Positions 8,703 through 23,168 of a stretch of 24,718 nt of DNA are shown piece by piece. The DNA is taken from IMG/VR virus record IMGVR_UViG_3300035181_001029, positions 1 to 24,718 of that record; one strand, given 5' to 3'. Source of the DNA: a virus. Made by a program: the position numbers and the translations under genes. Within the stretch, counting starts at the first letter, position 1, and each line of letters opens with the position of its first letter. The notes under the pieces were generated by a model. The model made no database searches. It had not been told where the DNA came from and saw only the letters and a program-made list of their open reading frames with translations.

Positions 8703-8972
8703 TTAATTATTATTTGTTTCGTTAGTTACTGTTTGTTCTGTCTGTGTTGGCTCTTCAGTTGTTGTTTCAACAGGTGTTGAATCTTCAACAGGTGTTGTTG
8801 GTTCTATTGGTGTTTGTTCTACTGTTGTAGTTTCATCAACAGATGCTGTGTCTTCCTGTACATCCCCCTGAATTGCTTTTATAACCTGTTCAGGTAAATT
8901 CTTTTGTTTAGCTGCGGTATTATAATCGCTATGCAAATACTTTTTCCCTCCAAAATATGTTATTGCGTCCAT
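8703..8972 (-). CDS. Small protein with Thr/Pro/Glu-rich low-complexity tail
   Basis: An 89-residue protein. Residues 1-38 look folded (MDAITYFGGKKYLHSDYN, then a short helix). From about residue 39 to the end the chain is an acidic T/P/E/V-rich repeat with TP-[VI]-E units. The DNA carries matching direct repeats, with TTCAACAGGTGTTG occurring twice near 8767-8800. It is wedged, 4 bases from each neighbour, between the two paralogous virion protein genes, so it is probably a structural or assembly partner of them. The tail may be a linker or a surface-exposed stalk. No family recognised. Confidence 0.55.
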   Translation of the reverse strand: MDAITYFGGKKYLHSDYNTAAKQKNLPEQVIKAIQGDVQEDTASVDETTTVEQTPIEPTTPVEDSTPVETTTEEPTQTEQTVTNETNNN

Positions 8973-8976
8973 GTTA

Positions 8977-10056
8977 TTAAGGATTTAATGTTATTGTCCA
9001 ATTTGGTAAATTATATCGAATGAAATCACTCAACCAATTACCATTATCAGTAGGGTCGTTGCTCATATATTGTGATACTGCTACTATACCTGCATTAGTT
9101 CCACCGCTGAATTTAGCTATACCTGCAACAGCAGGATTATTTTGTGCAGCTGCAAATAAGAAATCTCCAATTGAATTTGCTGTTAATGAACAATCGTTAG
9201 CATATATAACAGTTGCCATTGGTGCATAAATATTTTTTATAGAATCACTTCCATGACAATCGAAATAATGTGCGTTTTGTGCAAATAAAGATATTCCTGT
9301 TAAACTGTCGCAATTATCTGCAACAAATGAACTCATAAAATAACTTTTTAACTCTCCTATAAATCCACTACCTGTAATGTCTAAAAAAGAAGTATTTTTC
9401 GGAGTAATAATTTTGGCATTTCCTGCTATTCCTGTCCATGTAGTATTAATTACACCTGATGTTGAAGTTATAACAGATTTATCAGGTGCAACTACATAAC
9501 CGGTTTTATCTGAATCAACCGTTAATTTAATTACACCACCTTTTGCAATTTGTAATCCTGAAATAACCTCATAAGTATATGTTGTAATAATTCCTGTAAT
9601 GTCAGCAACAAGATAATAATCACCTGATGTTTCTTCCATGCCTTCGCGACTCGTAAATTCTACTGCTGTTGTAGAAAGGTTGTCGTTAGCCATCGATGCC
9701 TGTGTAGTTTTCCAAAGACCGTATTTTGCACCGAGAACATATTTTGTTCCATCGTTAGCTTCAACGAACAAAACAATATCATCCATACCATCCAACACTT
9801 CGCCACCATCATTAATTACAGCTGTGAATTTGTGTTTGAATCCGTTGAAATTATCTTCAGAAACTACCTGTTCACCTCCTGCATTCATAAAGAATTTAAC
9901 GCCAGAAATAACCCCTAAAATTGGAGCTGTTACTACCGTTACTTTATTCCCGTCAAAAGTAAGTTTGACATCTTCACGAAATGCCCAATATGCTAAAGGT
10001 TTTAATCCTTTAATTGAGCGTGGTGCGTTTATAATACTTTGAACTAAATTGCTCAT
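8977..10056 (-). CDS. Virion structural protein, long paralogue with added C-terminal display domain
   Basis: A 359-residue protein. Residues 1 to about 152 are homologous to the 173-residue protein at 8177-8698 (shared GLWKTTQ-x2-MANDN and SREGMEE blocks). Residues ~155-359 have no counterpart there. They hold a short beta region (GGVIKLTVDSDKTGYVVAP), then irregular leucine/aspartate-rich repeats (FVADNCDSLTGISLF, YFDCHGSDSIKNIYAP, VIYANDCSLTANSIGDF) that look like a small leucine-rich-repeat or BspA-like domain, and a GTNAGI segment. Such a domain on a tail-tube or decoration subunit would project from the particle and may bind host surfaces or glycans. It is the first gene after the major capsid gene. 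Confidence 0.7.
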   Translation of the reverse strand: MSNLVQSIINAPRSIKGLKPLAYWAFREDVKLTFDGNKVTVVTAPILGVISGVKFFMNAGGEQVVSEDNFNGFKHKFTAVINDGGEVLDGMDDIVLFVEANDGTKYVLGAKYGLWKTTQASMANDNLSTTAVEFTSREGMEETSGDYYLVADITGIITTYTYEVISGLQIAKGGVIKLTVDSDKTGYVVAPDKSVITSTSGVINTTWTGIAGNAKIITPKNTSFLDITGSGFIGELKSYFMSSFVADNCDSLTGISLFAQNAHYFDCHGSDSIKNIYAPMATVIYANDCSLTANSIGDFLFAAAQNNPAVAGIAKFSGGTNAGIVAVSQYMSNDPTDNGNWLSDFIRYNLPNWTITLNP

Positions 10057-11203: not shown

Positions 11204-11677
11204 TTATACAAATCTGTTTGTTACGGTTTTTTGACCTGCTTCGATTGGGTCCGTTGTAACCATCTGACTTTTGAAAGATGCTAATTGAGCTTTAATACTT
11301 TCAATTTCTTCAACCTTTGCAGATGCTTCTGTAAGTTGTTTTTTCAATGCTTCATTTTCTGCCTTTAGGGCTTCGAGTTCTGCATTTGGTGCTGGTTCTG
11401 CTGCTGGGTCTGCTTCTACTGGGATAATTTCAGAAAGCACACCGCCTTTAATTACATATATTTCTCCTGTTGCCATAACAACTTTTCCATCTGGTGCAGT
11501 TGTTTTGTCACCTACCTTAACTATTCCGCCTTCGGGAACGTCAGGGAATTCAATTTGATTTCCATTAGCATCAGTTACCATAATAGCCTTGACTGTAGGC
11601 TTGAAAATTGTCAAAAGTTTGTCCAAAAAAGTTTGATTTTTCTGGTCGATAATTTTTTCTAATTCTTTTGTGTCCAT
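11204..11677 (-). CDS. Possible nested scaffold protein from an internal start
   Basis: An in-frame ATG at 11677 (codon 180 of the protease) begins MDTKELEKIIDQKNQ, exactly where the peptidase domain ends and the coiled-coil region begins. Upstream is AAAAACAAATGAT, an A-rich leader like those of other starts here. A separate 157-residue scaffold made from this start would parallel the nested Nu3 in the lambda C gene. It is equally possible that only the fusion is made. The sequence cannot decide. Confidence 0.35.
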   Translation of the reverse strand: MDTKELEKIIDQKNQTFLDKLLTIFKPTVKAIMVTDANGNQIEFPDVPEGGIVKVGDKTTAPDGKVVMATGEIYVIKGGVLSEIIPVEADPAAEPAPNAELEALKAENEALKKQLTEASAKVEEIESIKAQLASFKSQMVTTDPIEAGQKTVTNRFV

Positions 11678-12214
11678 ATCATTTGTTTTTAAGTTTAAGT
11701 ATGCGATTGCCTGAATTTTCAGGATATTTGCGAAATTGATTGAAGTTAGTTGTGATTCGGTTAATGGTTCATTAATTTGCATTAATGCTGCGATAACATC
11801 AGGGTCTGCACCGGTTTGTTTTGCAATGAAACTTTGAATACTCTTTTGTTCAGATAACAATAAGTCTGACATTGCCTGTAAATCTTCGGCTGTGGCACCA
11901 TCTCCAAGATATGTTACGAAAGGATTATGAATAAGTGCTACACCTTTTGACATGTCAAAGAATCTTTTTTCAAATGGGAGTGCCAAGAAGATTGAAGCTG
12001 CTATACTTGCAACGTTTCCGGTATTAATAACCCTCGAAAATTGGTCTGCATGAGAACGAATAAAATCAGCTATTTGATTACCTTCTGTAACAGACCCACC
12101 AACAGAATCAATAAAGAGCGTAATTGCTTCGCCTTTTGCGTTAGAATAGTCGGTAATAAACTGACTATAAGTATATTCAGCTCCTATTTCGCCTTTAATT
12201 TCTATTTGTGCCAT
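11204..12214 (-). CDS. ClpP-type prohead protease fused to a scaffold-like domain
   Basis: A 336-residue protein from the ATG at 12214 (MAQIEIKGEIG). The frame is open 183 bases further upstream, but that extension is low-complexity and hydrophobic and covers the opposing promoter region, so I reject it. Residues 1-~165 are a Clp/S14 peptidase: SVGGSV (37-42) is the oxyanion loop, GNVASIAAS holds the nucleophile Ser70, and ALIHNP holds His96. Residues ~180-336 are acidic, Ala/Glu-rich and include the coiled coil AELEALKAENEALKKQL, a scaffold character. It should guide capsid assembly and trim the prohead, including itself. The gene immediately precedes the capsid gene. Confidence 0.85.
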   Translation of the reverse strand: MAQIEIKGEIGAEYTYSQFITDYSNAKGEAITLFIDSVGGSVTEGNQIADFIRSHADQFSRVINTGNVASIAASIFLALPFEKRFFDMSKGVALIHNPFVTYLGDGATAEDLQAMSDLLLSEQKSIQSFIAKQTGADPDVIAALMQINEPLTESQLTSINFANILKIQAIAYLNLKTNDMDTKELEKIIDQKNQTFLDKLLTIFKPTVKAIMVTDANGNQIEFPDVPEGGIVKVGDKTTAPDGKVVMATGEIYVIKGGVLSEIIPVEADPAAEPAPNAELEALKAENEALKKQLTEASAKVEEIESIKAQLASFKSQMVTTDPIEAGQKTVTNRFV

Positions 12215-12276
12215 TATTTTATTATAAATTTCACACAAAAAAACATAAAAATAGAACAGAATAAAAATAAAATACA

Positions 12277-12284
12277 TATATTTG
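12277..12284 (+). promoter_or_regulatory. Bacteroidetes-type -7 promoter box of the plus-strand island
   Basis: TATATTTG matches the Bacteroidetes -7 consensus TAnnTTTG exactly and is followed by C, as is common. It lies 30 bases before the ATG of the first island gene (12314). No good -33 TTG box is seen about 20 bases upstream, so the promoter may be weak or need an activator. The same 99-base gap must contain leader DNA for the minus-strand protease gene. Confidence 0.55.
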
Positions 12285-12313
12285 CAGCACGTAATGCAAC
12301 AAAATAATAAAAT

Positions 12314-12622
12314 ATGGTCTACGAACTTAAAGAATATGCCGAAAAAATAGCTTTTTGCTCTCTTCGGACGTTGGAAACAAGGATAAAAAAACAACAATTG
12401 CCTTCAAATCACATTGTTTACAAAGGAAAACATGGGCAAAGAACAGTTATTGAGATTATTCACGGTTCTGAACATTGTCGAGCTTGTAGCAATGTTCACC
12501 ATGCTGCACTTGAATTTCAAGAAAGAAAGACTGATTCAAACGAACGGGAACTGGCTGCAGAACTGTGTGTTAAATTTGATATTAGCGCAATTAAATTCTT
12601 TAAAATGATGGGAGTGAAATGA
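12314..12622 (+). CDS. Small HTH (MerR/excisionase-like) DNA-binding protein
   Basis: A 102-residue protein. Residues ~3-48 (YELKEYAEKIAFCSLRTLET, then RIKKQQLPSNHIVYKG) follow the layout of winged or MerR/excisionase-type HTH domains: helix, turn with S-x-RT, recognition helix, then basic KKQ-LP and a hairpin (KGKHGQRTVIEI). The middle has two cysteines and two histidines close together (EHCRACSNVHH), possibly a metal site. The C-terminus is a charged helix. It is the first gene of the plus-strand island and overlaps the next gene by 4 bases, so it may control the island or the opposing late promoter region. The family is not fixed. Confidence 0.65.
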   Translation: MVYELKEYAEKIAFCSLRTLETRIKKQQLPSNHIVYKGKHGQRTVIEIIHGSEHCRACSNVHHAALEFQERKTDSNERELAAELCVKFDISAIKFFKMMGVK

Positions 12623-13023
12623 AAAGATGTACAAAGTGTGGTATTGAGAAACCGATGGATGAGTTTTATAAATATAAAACGAGGAAAGTAGTATATCGAA
12701 CTGTATGTAAATCTTGCATAAAAGAACAAAACAAAAAATGTAGATTAGACAATCTTGAAAGAAATAAAGCATCTGTAAGAAAATGGCATTTAGAAAATCC
12801 TGAAAGAGTAAAAGCATTACATAAAAAATGGTATTTTGAAAATCATGAAAAAGTAAAAGAATTAACTGAAAAATGGCGTTTAGAGAATCCAGAAAAATAT
12901 GCTTTATCCAATATAAAATCAAGACTTAAGAAACAAATAGGCGAAACTCCACCGCCAGAATTAGTGGAGGTTAAATTATTAATTAATAAAACAAAAAGAT
13001 TATGCAAAACATTAAAGAATTGA
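12619..13023 (+). CDS. Zinc-ribbon protein related to the N-terminal part of phage HNH proteins
   Basis: A 134-residue very basic protein. The N-terminus has CTKCGIEKPMDEFYK and CKSCIKEQ, two C-x2-C pairs forming a zinc ribbon. Residues ~48-92 contain three tandem ~14-residue helical repeats with the core KW-x2-EN-x-E-[RK]-[VY] (KWHLENPERV, KWYFENHEKV, KWRLENPEKY). This ribbon-plus-repeat arrangement is typical of the N-terminal part of phage HNH endonucleases. No HNH catalytic motif follows, so nuclease activity is unlikely here. The end, ETPPPELVEVKLLINKTKR, is a motif I associate with small DNA-related phage proteins. Likely a nucleic-acid-binding protein. It overlaps the next gene by 22 bases. 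Confidence 0.65.
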   Translation: MKRCTKCGIEKPMDEFYKYKTRKVVYRTVCKSCIKEQNKKCRLDNLERNKASVRKWHLENPERVKALHKKWYFENHEKVKELTEKWRLENPEKYALSNIKSRLKKQIGETPPPELVEVKLLINKTKRLCKTLKN

Positions 13024-13199
13024 GAGAAACTTTAATCTCAAATTACGAAGACTTGAAAGCTGGAAAAATTGAACGTGCCCTCGTTGGCGAACTGAACAAC
13101 ACTGCGGGTAAAATTATTGCCACGGTTACAACTGAATTGAAGTACCAAAACCAACATGGGTTAAAAAGAAAAATTGATTTTTTGGAATATGAAGAATAA
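13002..13199 (+). CDS. Small conserved phage protein, function unknown
   Basis: A 65-residue all-helical protein starting MQNIKELRETLISNYEDLK and continuing with GELNNTAGKIIATVTTELKY and KIDFLEYEE. The pattern LRE-x-L-x3-Y-x2-L-x-x-G-[KI], then N-x-AGK-II-x2-V, then IDFL is one I recognise from short hypothetical proteins in Bacteroidetes phages, often directly after a Zn-ribbon protein like the one upstream. It overlaps that gene by 22 bases, so the two look like a conserved pair. No function known. Confidence 0.65.
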   Translation: MQNIKELRETLISNYEDLKAGKIERALVGELNNTAGKIIATVTTELKYQNQHGLKRKIDFLEYEE

Positions 13200-13241
13200 T
13201 AGTAGCTTGATAGGCTTTTTTAAAACTCAATAAAAAATTAT

Positions 13242-13601
13242 ATGAAAGCGAAATTATTTATTAGACTAAAATCAGTTTCCGCAGATTTAGTATTTAGCAA
13301 GTTTTTAGAAAAAAGATTACAACATGCACTAAACAAATACGGATTGCCTAATAGCGTTTATTTGTTAGCGTTTGAATGTGAATCTGACAAAGAAAATTTT
13401 AATGCAAATAGTACGGAAATACTTATAACAGAGTCGCTACCTGTAATGCGTAGCTTCATTGAATTATATTTTGATAACTACATTGACGGTTCTGATATTA
13501 ATGTGTATTTTCAAGAGTACGATACATACGAGTATGCTTACAATGTTGCTCTAAAAATGAGAGAACAAAATAAAAAATGCTACGATGAAGATAAGTTATA
13601 G
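13242..13601 (+). CDS. Unrecognised protein, first of a coupled pair
   Basis: A 119-residue protein. It begins with a strand-like basic stretch (MKAKLFIRLKS), then a helix (FSKFLEKRLQHALNKYGL), a hydrophobic strand (SVYLLAFECES), and a second alpha/beta part rich in acidic and aromatic residues (YFDNYIDGSDINVYFQEYDTYEYAYNVALK). It looks like a small alpha/beta domain, with no known catalytic motif and no membrane segment. A 42-base gap separates it from the upstream conserved pair, while it overlaps the next gene by 17 bases, so it and the 267-residue protein form a sub-operon. A partner, inhibitor or immunity role for the downstream protein is possible, but that is inference. Confidence 0.65.
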   Translation: MKAKLFIRLKSVSADLVFSKFLEKRLQHALNKYGLPNSVYLLAFECESDKENFNANSTEILITESLPVMRSFIELYFDNYIDGSDINVYFQEYDTYEYAYNVALKMREQNKKCYDEDKL

Positions 13602-14388
13602 AAATAATCCTGCATTGAAATATCTTGAAAATGGAATACCAAGATATTTTCCAATATATAAATCAGACGAAGAGTTTTTTTCACATAATTTAAAATCATT
13701 GAAAGTAACTTTTAATGCAATATACCCATACGTTAAAAACGAAATAAATCAAGTCACTGATTGTTTTGAAAAAGCTACAATGAAATCAATACAGCAACTA
13801 AACAAATTACTAATTGATATAAGTGACAATGAGGAATTATTAATCAATTCAACTTTTATTTTTAAAGAATACACTTGTTTTTTATATTATAAAACAACAG
13901 CAACAAGTGAAGCTATTTTTAGTAGATTATTTGTATTTAACAAACACGGTATGCCTATATGTTATCACCATTCACAACCAGATATATCTGAAAAAAATAC
14001 TTCCGATTTATTTACATGGTTTTCAAATTCAATTATTCCAAAGATAGATGAAGAATTAATAAACAATTCATTAAATCAAATTCTTGCAAGGTGTATTTTT
14101 ACACACTTATTCAAAAAATATGCTAAAGTTGAAACAAAAATAATTCCTGCAAATACCCATACAAAAGGTATTAATTGTAAATATATAAATGATACTAAAA
14201 GTAATATTACTATATTAGATTCAAAATGGTTTACTGATTTGGTAAATTCAAATAGTTTCAGCGTTCGTGGACATTTCAGATTACAGCCTAAAAAGAAAGA
14301 TGGAGAATGGACTAAGGAATTGATTTGGATTAATGATTTTATTAAAAATGGGTATCATAGACAAGCTAAAATTAATACAGTTGTTTAA
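13585..14388 (+). CDS. Unrecognised 267-residue protein with a GHxRxQP C-terminal motif
   Basis: A mixed alpha/beta protein. Residues 1-~165 include helical, Asn/Lys-rich segments and a central part with FTWFSNSIIPKIDEELIN. The C-terminal ~70 residues are distinct: KIIPANTHTKGINCKYIND, then VRGHFRLQPKKKDG, then ELIWINDFIKNGYHRQAK. The G-H-x-R-x-Q-P followed by a [LI]-x-WI-x2-F-x2-G segment is one I have seen at the end of many uncharacterised proteins on phages and other mobile elements; its function is not known to me. The gene overlaps its upstream partner by 17 bases, is followed by a strong terminator, and is absent from any normal late phage gene set, so it is a candidate cargo gene such as superinfection exclusion or anti-defence. 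Confidence 0.7.
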   Translation: MKISYRNNPALKYLENGIPRYFPIYKSDEEFFSHNLKSLKVTFNAIYPYVKNEINQVTDCFEKATMKSIQQLNKLLIDISDNEELLINSTFIFKEYTCFLYYKTTATSEAIFSRLFVFNKHGMPICYHHSQPDISEKNTSDLFTWFSNSIIPKIDEELINNSLNQILARCIFTHLFKKYAKVETKIIPANTHTKGINCKYINDTKSNITILDSKWFTDLVNSNSFSVRGHFRLQPKKKDGEWTKELIWINDFIKNGYHRQAKINTVV

Positions 14389-14413
14389 TGAAATGTTAAA
14401 CAACAAAAAAAGC

Positions 14414-14447
14414 AAAACCCGCTATCTTCACAGACTGCGGGTTTTTT
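14414..14447. terminator. Bidirectional terminator between the island and the tape measure gene
   Basis: AAAACCCGC (14414-14422) and GCGGGTTTT (14437-14445) give a perfect 9-bp stem with a 14-base loop. T runs follow on both strands: TTTTTT on plus, and TTTTGCTTTTTTT on minus. It lies between the convergent stops at 14388 and 14468 and should end both transcripts. This would uncouple late block 1 from late block 2. Confidence 0.85.
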
Positions 14448-14467: not shown

Positions 14468-17400
14468 TTATAGCGAGTTTGTTTGTTTAACTTGAACTTT
14501 ATTAGAAATTGAGGATGTTACATCATCAATTACTAAAACTTGTTGAACAGGATTAGCTTTTAATGCTGTATTCATTGCCGTTGTTGTTGCTGTTTGTTGT
14601 GTCTCTCCGCTTGTTCGAGCAACAAGAGAACCTGTTACGGATGAAGGAACTGATGGTACTGAACCTCCTACGATTCCACCTCCACCGCCACCTCCTGGTA
14701 TTGGCGTTGCCAAAATAGTGGCTAATTCAAGAGCACCAGTCAATCCCGCAAAAATTGCTCCTGGTACTCCTGCTACTGGTCCCAATTCTTGAAAAGATTT
14801 CATTATCGCACCCGCGGTTGAAATTACTACACCAATAGCGCTTAACTCCTTATTTCTGACTGCTGCTTCGTGTTCCAATTTAGCTTTTTTATCAGCAAGT
14901 TCTTTGTCTCCTTGTGCTACAAGTTTGTCGTATCTGTCTTTTGATATTAAACCACTTGCAAGTTGTTTGTCCAAATTTGCTTTTTGAGCATCTCTATTTT
15001 CAGTATCTTTTTGTAATTCACCATCCGAAAGAGCTTTTAAAAAGTCATTCATTTTCCCAGCGACATCCATTGCAGCATTAGCGAAATCCATGAATGCTTG
15101 CTGTTTTTTCTGTTGAGCATCTTGCCATGCTTTTACGTCCCTGTTATGTGCTTCTTCATTTATTGCTTCAATCATTTCAGCATTCCCTTTTGCTGCGTTT
15201 ATTTTGGCAACCCTTTCGTTTTCGATTTGGTCGTATGTTAATTGAAGTTCTTTGTCAATACTAATCCCTTTCACTGACAATTCATTATCAATATGCAATT
15301 TTTCAGCCTCTAAAGACATTTGCATATTTTGAGCTTCTGTAAGTGCTTTGTCGGTTGCGTATTTTTGGTCTAATAATTTTTGAGCCTTTAAATATTCTTC
15401 TTCAGATATTAAATCATTTTCATGCTTTAAATCTAACTGTTTTTGCTCATTATCATAATTTTCATCTAAGTCTGAAAGCTCTTCGGCAAATGTTGCTTGT
15501 CTTCCTGCTCTAATTTCCTTGTTTTTTAAATTATTTAATTCTATTTCAGCCTGCATATTTGAGATTTCAAGGTCAACTTTTTCCTTTATAACTTTCATCT
15601 CTTCCTGATTGGAAACAATAACAGCTTTTTTTCTGTCATTAATTAAAGTTAGAAAAAGAGCTTGTGCCTGTGTAGACAATCCGAGTTCTGTAAGCCTTGC
15701 CTGTAATACCTTCCCATCCGAAATCTGCATTAATTCGTTGAAGTCAATTATCTTTTTAGTTCCTTTTGTTGTTGAGTCTACATACTCTTGGAAAGATTGC
15801 TTTTGTTGTTCATAATTCAAATCATCGGCTTGTTTTATTTTCTCAATAATTGATAATTTTTCGTCTAAACTTAACTTTTCGTTTTTTAACTTATCATCAA
15901 GTATTAATTTAGATTGTTCTGCTGCATTTTTTTCTGCTGTTATTTGGTCGGTTAATAACTGTAAAAATAACTTATCTTTTTTTGCTTGAGCAGTAGTAAT
16001 TGTTACATTATATTCACCCCGTATTTTAATCAATTCAGCCAATGCGTCAGCGTAAGTCTTTCTTGTTGCCATCATCGCATCCCCTGTTTGTTTTTGTTCT
16101 AAATCAAGCGATGCCTTTGCAATTGCAGCTTTTCGCGTTGCCAAATCAAGTTTTATCTTTAATTGCTCATCTTCATTTTTTATCAATCCATTTATCGCAT
16201 CTTCTCGCTCTTTTGCAGATAGGCTTTGACCGGCTTTCCCTAATATCACCTTATATTCTGCTGCTTTTGCTTCGAGAGCCGCCAATGTAGTTACTGATTG
16301 TGTTTCTGCAATTTCGAGAGCTCTTTGCATATCTTTTATTTTTGCTTCCGATTTTGATACGTCTGTAATTGCATCCCCAAGTTGTTTAGCTTTTTCCGTT
16401 GTCTTTCCAATAACATCTTCAACCCCAGTTCCAAGTTGAAGCATTCCATTTGCCAAATCTTTCATTCCTTTTGAAAATTCACCATGTAGCAATTCACCTA
16501 TTGCATGAAATACCTCGCCAAAAGATTTAAACCTATTTAATAGGTTTTCCTCAATAGCTTTACCGATTTTTGTCATTAAATCAGGGAAACTTTTTATTCC
16601 TGAAGCAAAATCAATAACTCCCTGTACCGTTTTCGCAATGAAACCAGCAAGTTCTTTGAAAATAGCGCCCATTACAGCCAATGATTTACTCAGGAATTTA
16701 CTCCCCTCGTTCGTTTGAGTGAAATATGCTACAAGCGAACCCAATAAAACAACTATTGCTCCAATTCCAGTAGATGCCAACGCAACCTTGAATAATTTCA
16801 TTGCTCCGCTACTTGCTTCTGTCGCTACTGTTGCGGCTTCAGTTGCTGCTGCTCTTGCTGCTTCGGCTTCTGTAGCCATTTCGTCAGTTGCTGTTCCTGC
16901 TTCGGTTGCTGCGGCTAATTCGGCTTCCTTTGCTGCGGCTACTTCTGCGGCTTCTGCTGCTGCTGCTTCAGCTTCTTTCTTTACAATTAATGCTTCTTTA
17001 TATTGCATGGTAGCATCCTTCACACTTTCAAATTTAGTACGCAAAGTAACCAATACTGCTTCTCCCTTGCTCGCCATTTCCCCAAAGATACCGGGCAACC
17101 CTTGCAATGCAATTCCATAATCACCAACACTTCGTTGGTTTTGTCCAATTGACTTATCAATTTCTTTTAATTGGTCTGATAATGCTTTGGCTTCTTTTTG
17201 AGCTTCAATTGTCCTTACATTATTAACCCCATAAGCTGCAGCCATATCCTTAGCCTTAATCGCTGCTTCCGAATACCTTTGATTTAACAAAGCATAAGCA
17301 CCAGTAGTTTCACCTGTATCTTTTTTTAATGCAGTTAAAACATTTTGATTTGCAGATAGTTGTTTATTGAGTTGTTTAAGGTTAGATTCTGCGTTGATGT

Positions 17401-17572
17401 ATTCCGATGTCATCTTCGCTTCAACCAATTCAGCTCCTTCTTTCCCTTTAGTAAGCTCGTCAATAGCTTGCTTTTGGGCATTAATGGCAGTTTTTAAATC
17501 TTGTTGTCGTTTTAATGCTTCAGCGGAATCTATTTTTACGGTGATTAGTACTTCCTGCGTTTCAGTAGCCAT
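14468..17572 (-). CDS. Tail tape measure protein
   Basis: A 1034-residue protein. Residues 1-~200 are coiled-coil-like (LKQLNKQLSANQNVLTALKK). Residues 201-256 are a run of Ala/Glu/Thr repeats, encoded by near-repetitive GCN codons. A hydrophobic segment follows at ~262-284 (ALASTGIGAIVVLLGSLVAY), with an amphipathic segment after it, then long coiled coils and a second hydrophobic, Gly-rich C-terminal zone (GGGGGGGIVGGSV). This layout of long helical rod plus one or two membrane-active stretches is typical of siphovirus tape measure proteins, which set tail length and may assist DNA entry. By the usual ~1.5 angstrom per residue rule the tail would be roughly 150 nm, an estimate only. It is the last gene of late block 1. 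Confidence 0.9.
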   Translation of the reverse strand: MATETQEVLITVKIDSAEALKRQQDLKTAINAQKQAIDELTKGKEGAELVEAKMTSEYINAESNLKQLNKQLSANQNVLTALKKDTGETTGAYALLNQRYSEAAIKAKDMAAAYGVNNVRTIEAQKEAKALSDQLKEIDKSIGQNQRSVGDYGIALQGLPGIFGEMASKGEAVLVTLRTKFESVKDATMQYKEALIVKKEAEAAAAEAAEVAAAKEAELAAATEAGTATDEMATEAEAARAAATEAATVATEASSGAMKLFKVALASTGIGAIVVLLGSLVAYFTQTNEGSKFLSKSLAVMGAIFKELAGFIAKTVQGVIDFASGIKSFPDLMTKIGKAIEENLLNRFKSFGEVFHAIGELLHGEFSKGMKDLANGMLQLGTGVEDVIGKTTEKAKQLGDAITDVSKSEAKIKDMQRALEIAETQSVTTLAALEAKAAEYKVILGKAGQSLSAKEREDAINGLIKNEDEQLKIKLDLATRKAAIAKASLDLEQKQTGDAMMATRKTYADALAELIKIRGEYNVTITTAQAKKDKLFLQLLTDQITAEKNAAEQSKLILDDKLKNEKLSLDEKLSIIEKIKQADDLNYEQQKQSFQEYVDSTTKGTKKIIDFNELMQISDGKVLQARLTELGLSTQAQALFLTLINDRKKAVIVSNQEEMKVIKEKVDLEISNMQAEIELNNLKNKEIRAGRQATFAEELSDLDENYDNEQKQLDLKHENDLISEEEYLKAQKLLDQKYATDKALTEAQNMQMSLEAEKLHIDNELSVKGISIDKELQLTYDQIENERVAKINAAKGNAEMIEAINEEAHNRDVKAWQDAQQKKQQAFMDFANAAMDVAGKMNDFLKALSDGELQKDTENRDAQKANLDKQLASGLISKDRYDKLVAQGDKELADKKAKLEHEAAVRNKELSAIGVVISTAGAIMKSFQELGPVAGVPGAIFAGLTGALELATILATPIPGGGGGGGIVGGSVPSVPSSVTGSLVARTSGETQQTATTTAMNTALKANPVQQVLVIDDVTSSISNKVQVKQTNSL

Positions 17573-21315: not shown

Positions 21316-22515
21316 TTAAAATGTTGCGGATGTGTTTACTCTGTTTACTTTTTGTAGAAGCCTATTTAATGCTACATATCTAACAGCATCTAATGCATGA
21401 TTGAAATCATCAATAGGCTCATTTGTTGCTAAACCATTTTTATCTACTTTCCATTTGTATGACAATAGCTCTTTTTTTAAATTAGTTGACCGACTTGTTA
21501 TGTTTATTTTATACCGCTTCAACACATCAATGCCTCCACGAATGGAGTCAGAACCTTTGTTAGCACCCTCAATTCTAAATCGCTTTGATTTTATTTCTGC
21601 AATACTTTTTGGTTCTGCACTATCAGCAATAATATCAACTCTAAATAAATCATTATCTATTAATGATTGAATTATGTCAGAATTAAGCATTCCAGTTTTA
21701 TATTCAAGCTCATCAAGCCATATCTCCCCATTTGAAATCCTAAAATCAATTATAGTTGTAGGGTCGTTTGTAAATCCAAAATCCAACCCTATCCATCTAT
21801 TTTTAAAGTCAACAGGCATTTCATCGACTACATTCCAATTATTATATATTAAACCCTCTATTTTCCCAGTTAATCCACGTGCATATACTTTGAATAATTC
21901 AGGGTCTTTTATAGATTCAATCCTATCATGTTCATCTTGACTTAAATACGGATTATTCCTGTGGTCTGAAATTATAGACTTTAAATCCTTACTATCAATT
22001 TCATGTGCCCAAAACCTAAATGTAGGATTATAATCAAGTATTATTTTTTTTCTTGTCCTTATTGAAAGCTGCCAATAGATTAAATAATTAATTCCGTTTG
22101 CTTCGTTAACAAAAAGGTAATCTCTTTTACCTGATTTTGCATCTTGCTCATCTGCAAATGAGCTAAACTCAATTATAGAACCGTTATTACAAGTAAATAC
22201 TCTATCAGTTTCATTCGGCTTATTAAAATGTTGTTGATATATTTCACTTTCATAGTATATTCTTTTTGCATCTCTAAATGCTCCTTTCTTTAAGTTTGGA
22301 ACATCCTGACCAACAACCGTTATAACTTGATTTGGTTGCTCTATTGCTAAACAAAAAAGAACATCCAATGCTGTATATGTTTTTCCACTTGAAGTTCCAC
22401 CTTGTAGCCTTATAATACGCTCCTTTGCATAATATATTTCATAAAACAAAGGGGGTTTTTCAATCAATAACTTCTGATTCATTTTTTGCAAATGTTTGTT
22501 TTGCTCTTTCATCAA
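21316..22515 (-). CDS. terL: Terminase large subunit
   Basis: A 399-residue packaging motor. The ATPase domain has Walker A GGTSSGKT (39-46), adenine-side helix TALDVLFCLA, and Walker B-like YLFVNEAN with the catalytic Glu at 137. IILDYNP (158-164) is a further conserved region. The RNase H-like nuclease domain has D245 in GLDFGFTNDP, D298 in IIADSAEP and D376 in DDFNHALDAVRY, the expected acidic triad. The set is complete, so the enzyme should be active. It cuts and pumps phage DNA into the prohead through the portal. The chosen start overlaps terS by 56 bases; Met12 (22482) is an alternative with less overlap. Confidence 0.95.
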   Translation of the reverse strand: MMKEQNKHLQKMNQKLLIEKPPLFYEIYYAKERIIRLQGGTSSGKTYTALDVLFCLAIEQPNQVITVVGQDVPNLKKGAFRDAKRIYYESEIYQQHFNKPNETDRVFTCNNGSIIEFSSFADEQDAKSGKRDYLFVNEANGINYLIYWQLSIRTRKKIILDYNPTFRFWAHEIDSKDLKSIISDHRNNPYLSQDEHDRIESIKDPELFKVYARGLTGKIEGLIYNNWNVVDEMPVDFKNRWIGLDFGFTNDPTTIIDFRISNGEIWLDELEYKTGMLNSDIIQSLIDNDLFRVDIIADSAEPKSIAEIKSKRFRIEGANKGSDSIRGGIDVLKRYKINITSRSTNLKKELLSYKWKVDKNGLATNEPIDDFNHALDAVRYVALNRLLQKVNRVNTSATF

Positions 22516-23137: not shown

Positions 23138-23168
23138 CAAATATAGTATATTTTCATGGAAAATACAA
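23138..23168 (-). promoter_or_regulatory. Late promoter (Bacteroidetes -33/-7 type)
   Basis: On the minus strand TTG (23168-23166) is followed after exactly 20 bases by TATATTTG (23145-23138), an excellent match to the Bacteroidetes housekeeping promoter TTG-N19-21-TAnnTTTG. It is placed to transcribe the small gene at 23116, terS, terL and the tail genes. Confidence 0.8.
23149..23165. promoter_or_regulatory. Perfect inverted repeat between the -33 and -7 boxes (operator candidate)
   Basis: TATTTTC-ATG-GAAAATA is a perfect 7-bp dyad around a 3-base centre, filling most of the spacer of the late promoter. A dimeric regulator bound here would block RNA polymerase. The HTH protein encoded at 23441-23641 is a natural candidate. 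Confidence 0.65.

Follow-up and report, generated by a model that had tools for sequence, protein, structure and literature searches.

A conserved accessory-gene slot between the tape measure and head protease genes of a Bacteroidota-type phage clade, probably occupied by a self-regulated operon

The stretch of DNA analysed here (the window), an IMG/VR virus record of 24.7 kb, has its late genes on the minus strand, where they run from the terminase subunits (small and large, 22894-21316) through the tape measure, the head protease, a likely capsid and the portal (8106-6949) to the lysis genes, while early-type genes occupy the plus strand at both ends. Five plus-strand open reading frames (g1 to g5, 12314-14388) lie within this late region. 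On the right they are bordered by the tail tape measure gene (14468-17572, minus strand; PHROG tape measure, E=3e-20) and on the left by a gene for a ClpP-type head maturation protease with a scaffold-like C-terminus (11204-12214, minus strand; Pfam CLP_protease, 2.9e-16, and PHROG head maturation protease), so that the five-gene island described by an earlier sequence-only reading is indeed present. The frames overlap or almost abut, phage codon usage fits the own frame of each gene best among the six frames, and when the island was Markov-shuffled 300 times no frame exceeded 166 aa, well short of the 267 aa of g5. Elsewhere in the window, a 157-aa early protein (189-662) ends in an SSB-like acidic tail (NVDLPF) and is possibly a single-strand binding protein, and a 102-aa minus-strand protein (1498-1806) is related to nucleoside 2-deoxyribosyltransferase and MazG-like PHROGs.

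The first gene, g1 (12314-12622, plus strand; 102 aa), appears to encode a winged-HTH DNA-binding protein, a putative autorepressor, with a helical C-terminal half. The window protein itself has no significant match in Pfam or PHROG, and its family assignment rests on homologues that are 35-47% identical: the one in the related contig L093 matches PHROG 575, a Cox-like excisionase/repressor family (9.9e-7), and the one in L003 matches HTH_17 at 1.3e-5, just under the family cut-off. The earlier description of an early-type DNA-binding protein thus holds for the g1 homologues, the window copy being without a significant match of its own. An AlphaFold2 model built from six sequences (mean pLDDT 81) has the winged-HTH element order E-H-H-E-E followed by three C-terminal helices, and fold searches with this model returned weak winged-HTH regulators only, none below E=0.001. 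A PADLOC match of g1 to Cas1_II (0.015) was dismissed as noise.

The second gene, g2 (12619-13023, plus strand; 134 aa), encodes an EndoVII-like CxxC zinc finger followed by KW..ENPEK repeats. Its match to PHROG 2340 endonuclease (3.8e-12) covers residues 1-95 only, at positions 8-106 of the 171-position model, and no HNH catalytic motif is found in its sequence; g2 therefore resembles the endonuclease VII/HNH zinc-finger proteins of phages in its N-terminal CxxC...CxxC finger and basic repeats but differs from them in the missing catalytic part. Homologues of g2 occur in phages and in one related contig, L099, at the same genomic position. That contig also carries a homologue of g3 (13002-13199, plus strand; 65 aa), a small conserved phage protein with a further homologue in Tenacibaculum phage JQ. 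The remaining two genes, g4 (13242-13601, plus strand; 119 aa) and g5 (13585-14388, plus strand; 267 aa), are ORFans. Searches of viral_contigs, phages, plasmids and genome_contigs gave no homologue of either, and g4 had no match in Pfam, PHROG, NCBIfam, PADLOC or viral_contigs, in agreement with the earlier view that the last two genes belong to no recognised family. The sole genome match to g5 (L091) covers 46 residues within a TPR protein and was rejected as due to chance. The GC content of g5 is 24.9%, compared with 31-38% for the late genes, and its single-sequence structure prediction, with a pLDDT of 36, was too poor to be of use. PADLOC had no match for g2 to g5, and no known anti-defence family was matched among them in PADLOC, Pfam or NCBIfam. 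A role of these genes in defence or anti-defence, which the sequence-only reading put forward with reserve, may be envisaged; the products of the genes that follow g1 would most likely be small proteins acting early, in host takeover or counter-defence.

Profiles of the protease, the portal and g1 were used to retrieve IMG/VR contigs of the same clade, which is Bacteroidota-type and without close cultured relatives in the collections searched. One of them, L002, is 99.98% identical to the window and was rejected as an independent relative. Nine further distinct members of the clade have sequence upstream of the protease gene, and each of them, like the window (10/10 loci), has one or more opposite-strand genes as its next neighbours there. 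The proteases of these contigs range from closely to distantly related to that of the window (L003 72% identical, L007 68%, L093 52%, L010 and L004 46%, L097 36%, L101 35%, L012 34% and L099 33%). The large terminases follow another course in one pair: those of the window (21316-22515) and L003 (1575-2768) are only 25% identical, whereas portal, capsid and protease are 73-82% identical, and the packaging gene has therefore been exchanged.

g1 is present in eight of the ten loci: in the window, L003, L004, L007, L010 and L093, and shortened in L012 and L097. In L004 and L012 it is preceded by another gene. Its neighbours differ from contig to contig. Besides g1, L003 has a DUF559-type nuclease (2.3e-11), a lipoprotein-like gene and a 37-aa protein; L004 has three unrelated small genes; and L007 and L093 have small zinc-ribbon-like genes related to each other. 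The homologues in L099 (g3 and g2) and a different small protein in L101 fill the place with g1 not detected, and in L010 g1 stands alone, its stop overlapping that of the tape measure gene. Since the genes other than g1 vary between relatives, the tape measure/protease junction is a slot, or hot spot, for accessory genes, anchored in this clade by g1. This also answers the objection, raised with the sequence-only reading, that related phages might all carry the same fixed genes here: it applies to g1 alone, and the differences in cargo support the idea of variable, accessory-type genes at a fixed place. Among more distant portal relatives, L014, L046 and L071 have just one small co-directional gene at the junction and others have different cargo, several of them (L018, L029 and L073) with a divergent gene of 169-185 aa. 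Eleven distant relatives (L018, L021, L026, L027, L029, L031, L032, L034, L048, L052 and L073) have several other late-strand genes at the junction, with the divergent 169-185 aa gene directly upstream of the protease; for L018 and L073, the two tested, this gene had no Pfam match. In L004, 31-nt direct repeats (90%; 8825-8855 and 9043-9073) of terminator sequence flank a 65-aa slot gene, which suggests that gene-plus-terminator cassettes can be gained in the slot.

Ahead of g1, the window has the predicted -7 box of an island promoter, TATATTTG (12277-12284, plus strand), 29 nt upstream of the g1 ATG, in accordance with the promoter-like box noticed earlier. It fits TAnnTTTG, the Bacteroidota sigmaA consensus described for the flavobacterial -7 box (PMC9723704). 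With 53 occurrences of TAnnTTTG in the window against 42.7 expected, the box alone is not above chance; it becomes significant because the relatives keep it at the same place. A TAnnTTTG box lies 19-37 nt upstream of the first island frame in 7 of the 10 loci, against 1.2 expected (P=1.5e-5), namely in the window, L003, L004, L007, L010, L012 and L093, which include every locus opening on g1; L097, L099 and L101 are without it. L003 and L004 have a -33 TTG at proper spacing, as has L093 on one possible reading; the window island promoter has none.

Starting inside this box is an operator-like inverted repeat, TTGCA-N8-TGCAA (12282-12299, plus strand). In all seven box-bearing slot promoters a 16-20 nt inverted repeat with arms of 4-8 bp begins within the box, that is, inside the core promoter: besides that of the window, these are TTGTG-N8-CACAA (L007), TTGAAT-N6-ATTCAA (L010), TTTGTCT-N6-AGACAAA (L012), TGACGTTATAACGTCA (L004), TGTC-N9-GACA (L003) and an imperfect TTGT/ACAA (L093). 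From one phage to another the arms are not the same in sequence. In the controls, 230 other TAnnTTTG sites, the arm that follows averages 2.5 bp, and the summed arms of the seven sites reach 39 bp, compared with about 17 for random sets of seven and with 0/20,000 resamplings reaching 39; the palindrome score behind these numbers was defined after the sites had been seen, and the sites share some ancestry, the window and L007 being close. Two further single-sequence collection scans for held-out loci gave zero new loci. We consider the evidence for a palindrome over the box, read from the sequences, to be strong but not blind. Each exact repeat is single-copy in its own contig, TTGCA-N8-TGCAA having no other exact copy in the window.

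At the convergent end of the island, a hairpin at 14414-14445, predicted to act as a bidirectional intrinsic terminator on both strands, consists of a CCCGC/GCGGG stem with flanking A-U pairs; T6 follows it in the plus-strand sequence, and each strand provides a U-tract. On either strand its fold is better than that of shuffled sequences (z=-2.3 and -3.5), confirming the terminator noted after the last gene; a simple terminator scanner missed it, its 14-nt loop exceeding the 8-nt limit. In five loci (the window, L003, L004, L097 and L101) the island ends in a bidirectional terminator, the hairpins being unrelated to one another in sequence, and none was found at the island end of L010 and L012, where the island is minimal. 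With a promoter and a terminator of its own, the island is supported as an independent transcription unit, as had been proposed. The accompanying suggestion that it breaks a single late transcript is only partly right: L010 and L012 lack the terminator, and TTTTTTTG (12236-12243, minus strand), 21 nt before the protease ATG, is a candidate start signal for the head operon. Five of seven relatives have the corresponding element, T[A/T]TTTTTG, on the head strand, 16-23 nt upstream of the protease ATG (shuffles give P of about 1e-6, for a motif picked after the alignment had been seen), and it is a candidate for a separate start of the head operon; a strict TAnnTTTG late promoter upstream of the protease is not general across the loci compared. 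At the other end of the late region, TTG-N20-TATATTTG (23138-23168, minus strand) upstream of a 59-aa gene and the terminase genes is a candidate tail-operon promoter facing the early genes.

Based on the slot, its anchor gene and variable cargo, the conserved promoter with its palindrome and the terminators, as observed in the loci named above, we propose that the island is a self-regulated accessory ("moron"-type) operon in a conserved tail/head slot, with g1 repressing and the downstream cargo interchangeable, and we give this reading a probability of roughly 0.6. Soon after infection, host RNA polymerase would initiate from the TAnnTTTG promoter, and transcription from g1 to g5 would run against the late strand, with the bidirectional terminator insulating island and late transcription from each other in both directions. 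The g1 protein, a winged HTH of the Cox/excisionase type, would bind the inverted repeat over the -7 box and the start point and, once enough product had been made, close the operon, giving an early burst followed by autorepression; the genes after g1 would be swappable cargo. The binding of g1 to the palindrome, the repression, the early timing and the role of the cargo are what we infer from this arrangement, and g1 probably shuts off its own promoter. Against this scheme stand the two loci that fill the slot without detected g1 (L099 and L101) and the three without the box (L097, L099 and L101).

This arrangement recalls the acr-aca operons, where autorepression sets in after a strong early burst. 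Aca proteins bind an inverted repeat that is part of the core promoter (PMC9410906). An inverted repeat lies within the core promoter here also, and an HTH gene shares the operon with small genes, g2 to g5, whose counterparts vary among relatives. In Pseudomonas phage JBD30, acrF1-aca1 is likewise a small accessory operon; it lies just upstream of the gene for the head maturation protease and likewise contains a winged-HTH gene (aca1 there, g1 here). However, the JBD30 operon has the same orientation as the late genes and lies on the head side, whereas the window island is on the opposite strand between tape measure and protease; g1 is first in its operon, whereas aca is often last. By the searches run, g1 is Cox/HTH_17-like and was not placed in an Aca family: its homologues match HTH_17, Cox-like and excisionase models, and the Aca Pfam types in PMC9410906 are others. 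No cargo gene of the window is a known Acr. Since g1 is at most a putative Aca and the cargo matches no known anti-defence gene, the best reading of the analogy is that the island works like acr-aca, and we do not claim that it is acr-aca. A further step would be to regard the slot as a dedicated counter-defence locus, with g1 founding a new Aca-like family and the downstream genes, including g4 and g5, being new defence inhibitors; this is a tentative idea to which we give a minor share of our belief.

With phage morons in general, the island shares an own promoter (here with a conserved -7 box) and an own terminator (here bidirectional), variable presence at one site among relatives, as seen from the varied cargo, from L010 with g1 only and from the single small co-directional gene of L014, L071 and L046, and an unusual base composition of some genes. 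It differs from them in comprising several genes, with a conserved, putative repressor as the first, and a putative operator. With the Cox-like excisionase/repressor family (PHROG 575; Pfam HTH_17), the g1 homologues share the N-terminal winged HTH; g1 differs by a 45-50 residue helical C-terminal extension (AELCVKYDL..FF.MHG), and there is no integrase found here for it to serve.

The position of g1 allows another explanation, which is that it mainly regulates the divergent head operon as a late-gene switch and that the cargo rides along behind a core regulatory gene. Its gene is divergent from the protease gene, its presumed site is located between two divergent promoters, the head strand has the conserved T[A/T]TTTTTG element, and g1 is kept in L010, where cargo is absent. 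However, the palindrome overlaps the island box and is separated by about 40-60 bp from the head-strand element, neither the window nor a 38-kb relative has a further copy of the operator at its other late or early promoters, and no g1 was detected in the L101 and L099 slots. We regard this explanation as unlikely, though worth keeping in mind beside that of an autorepressed accessory operon.

It is improbable that the island is instead a remnant of an early region that has otherwise relocated to the terminase side. In Cellulophaga phage phi46:1 (L112) the whole early region, with integrase genes, lies between tape measure and protease, so that the position of the early region is permuted between that phage and the window phage; in Tenacibaculum phage JQ the g3 homologue adjoins one of the EndoVII-type zinc-finger genes, outside the structural block. 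These arrangements are what a remnant would lead us to expect, but the island genes differ among relatives and are opposite to the late genes, whereas the phi46:1 early genes are mostly co-directional with them; no phi46:1 early gene is a recognised homologue of an island gene, and the intermediate phages L014 and L071 have at most one small co-directional gene here.

The sequence-only reading had favoured cargo expressed in the lysogen, and a prophage-expressed moron for superinfection exclusion or defence would agree with the own promoter and terminator, the opposite strand and the variable cargo, including the lipoprotein-like gene in L003; moreover, phi46:1, a distant relative, is annotated with integrases and an HTH gene. 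This part of that reading is not supported by our results. Neither a tyrosine nor a serine recombinase (integrase PF00589, resolvase PF00239) was found in the window or the relatives searched, including the 38-kb G002, and no repressor module stood out there. The absence of recombinases is to be read in the light of virus records that may be incomplete, and the phage may yet be temperate. A portal-profile scan of 84,980 bacterial and archaeal species genomes found no relative and no prophage. We regard lysogenic-conversion cargo as quite improbable. It is very improbable that a nuclease-like gene brought the island as a selfish homing element, despite the nuclease-type slot genes of the window (g2), L003 (DUF559) and L099, since g2 is the zinc-finger and linker part only, without the HNH motif, and the island persists without a nuclease in L010, L004 and L093.

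The guilt-by-association discovery of anti-CRISPRs relied on a pattern in which a repressor gene and its operator are conserved while the neighbouring genes are exchanged, and here, with g1 as the putative repressor, the pattern occurs at the address used by JBD30, directly upstream of the head protease, in a Bacteroidota-type clade. Each cargo gene is directly testable. If g1 founds an Aca-like family with inhibitor neighbours, it could serve as bait for finding more of them, and if it is an Aca-like autorepressor, it would give a handle on the small host-interaction genes of Bacteroidota phages.
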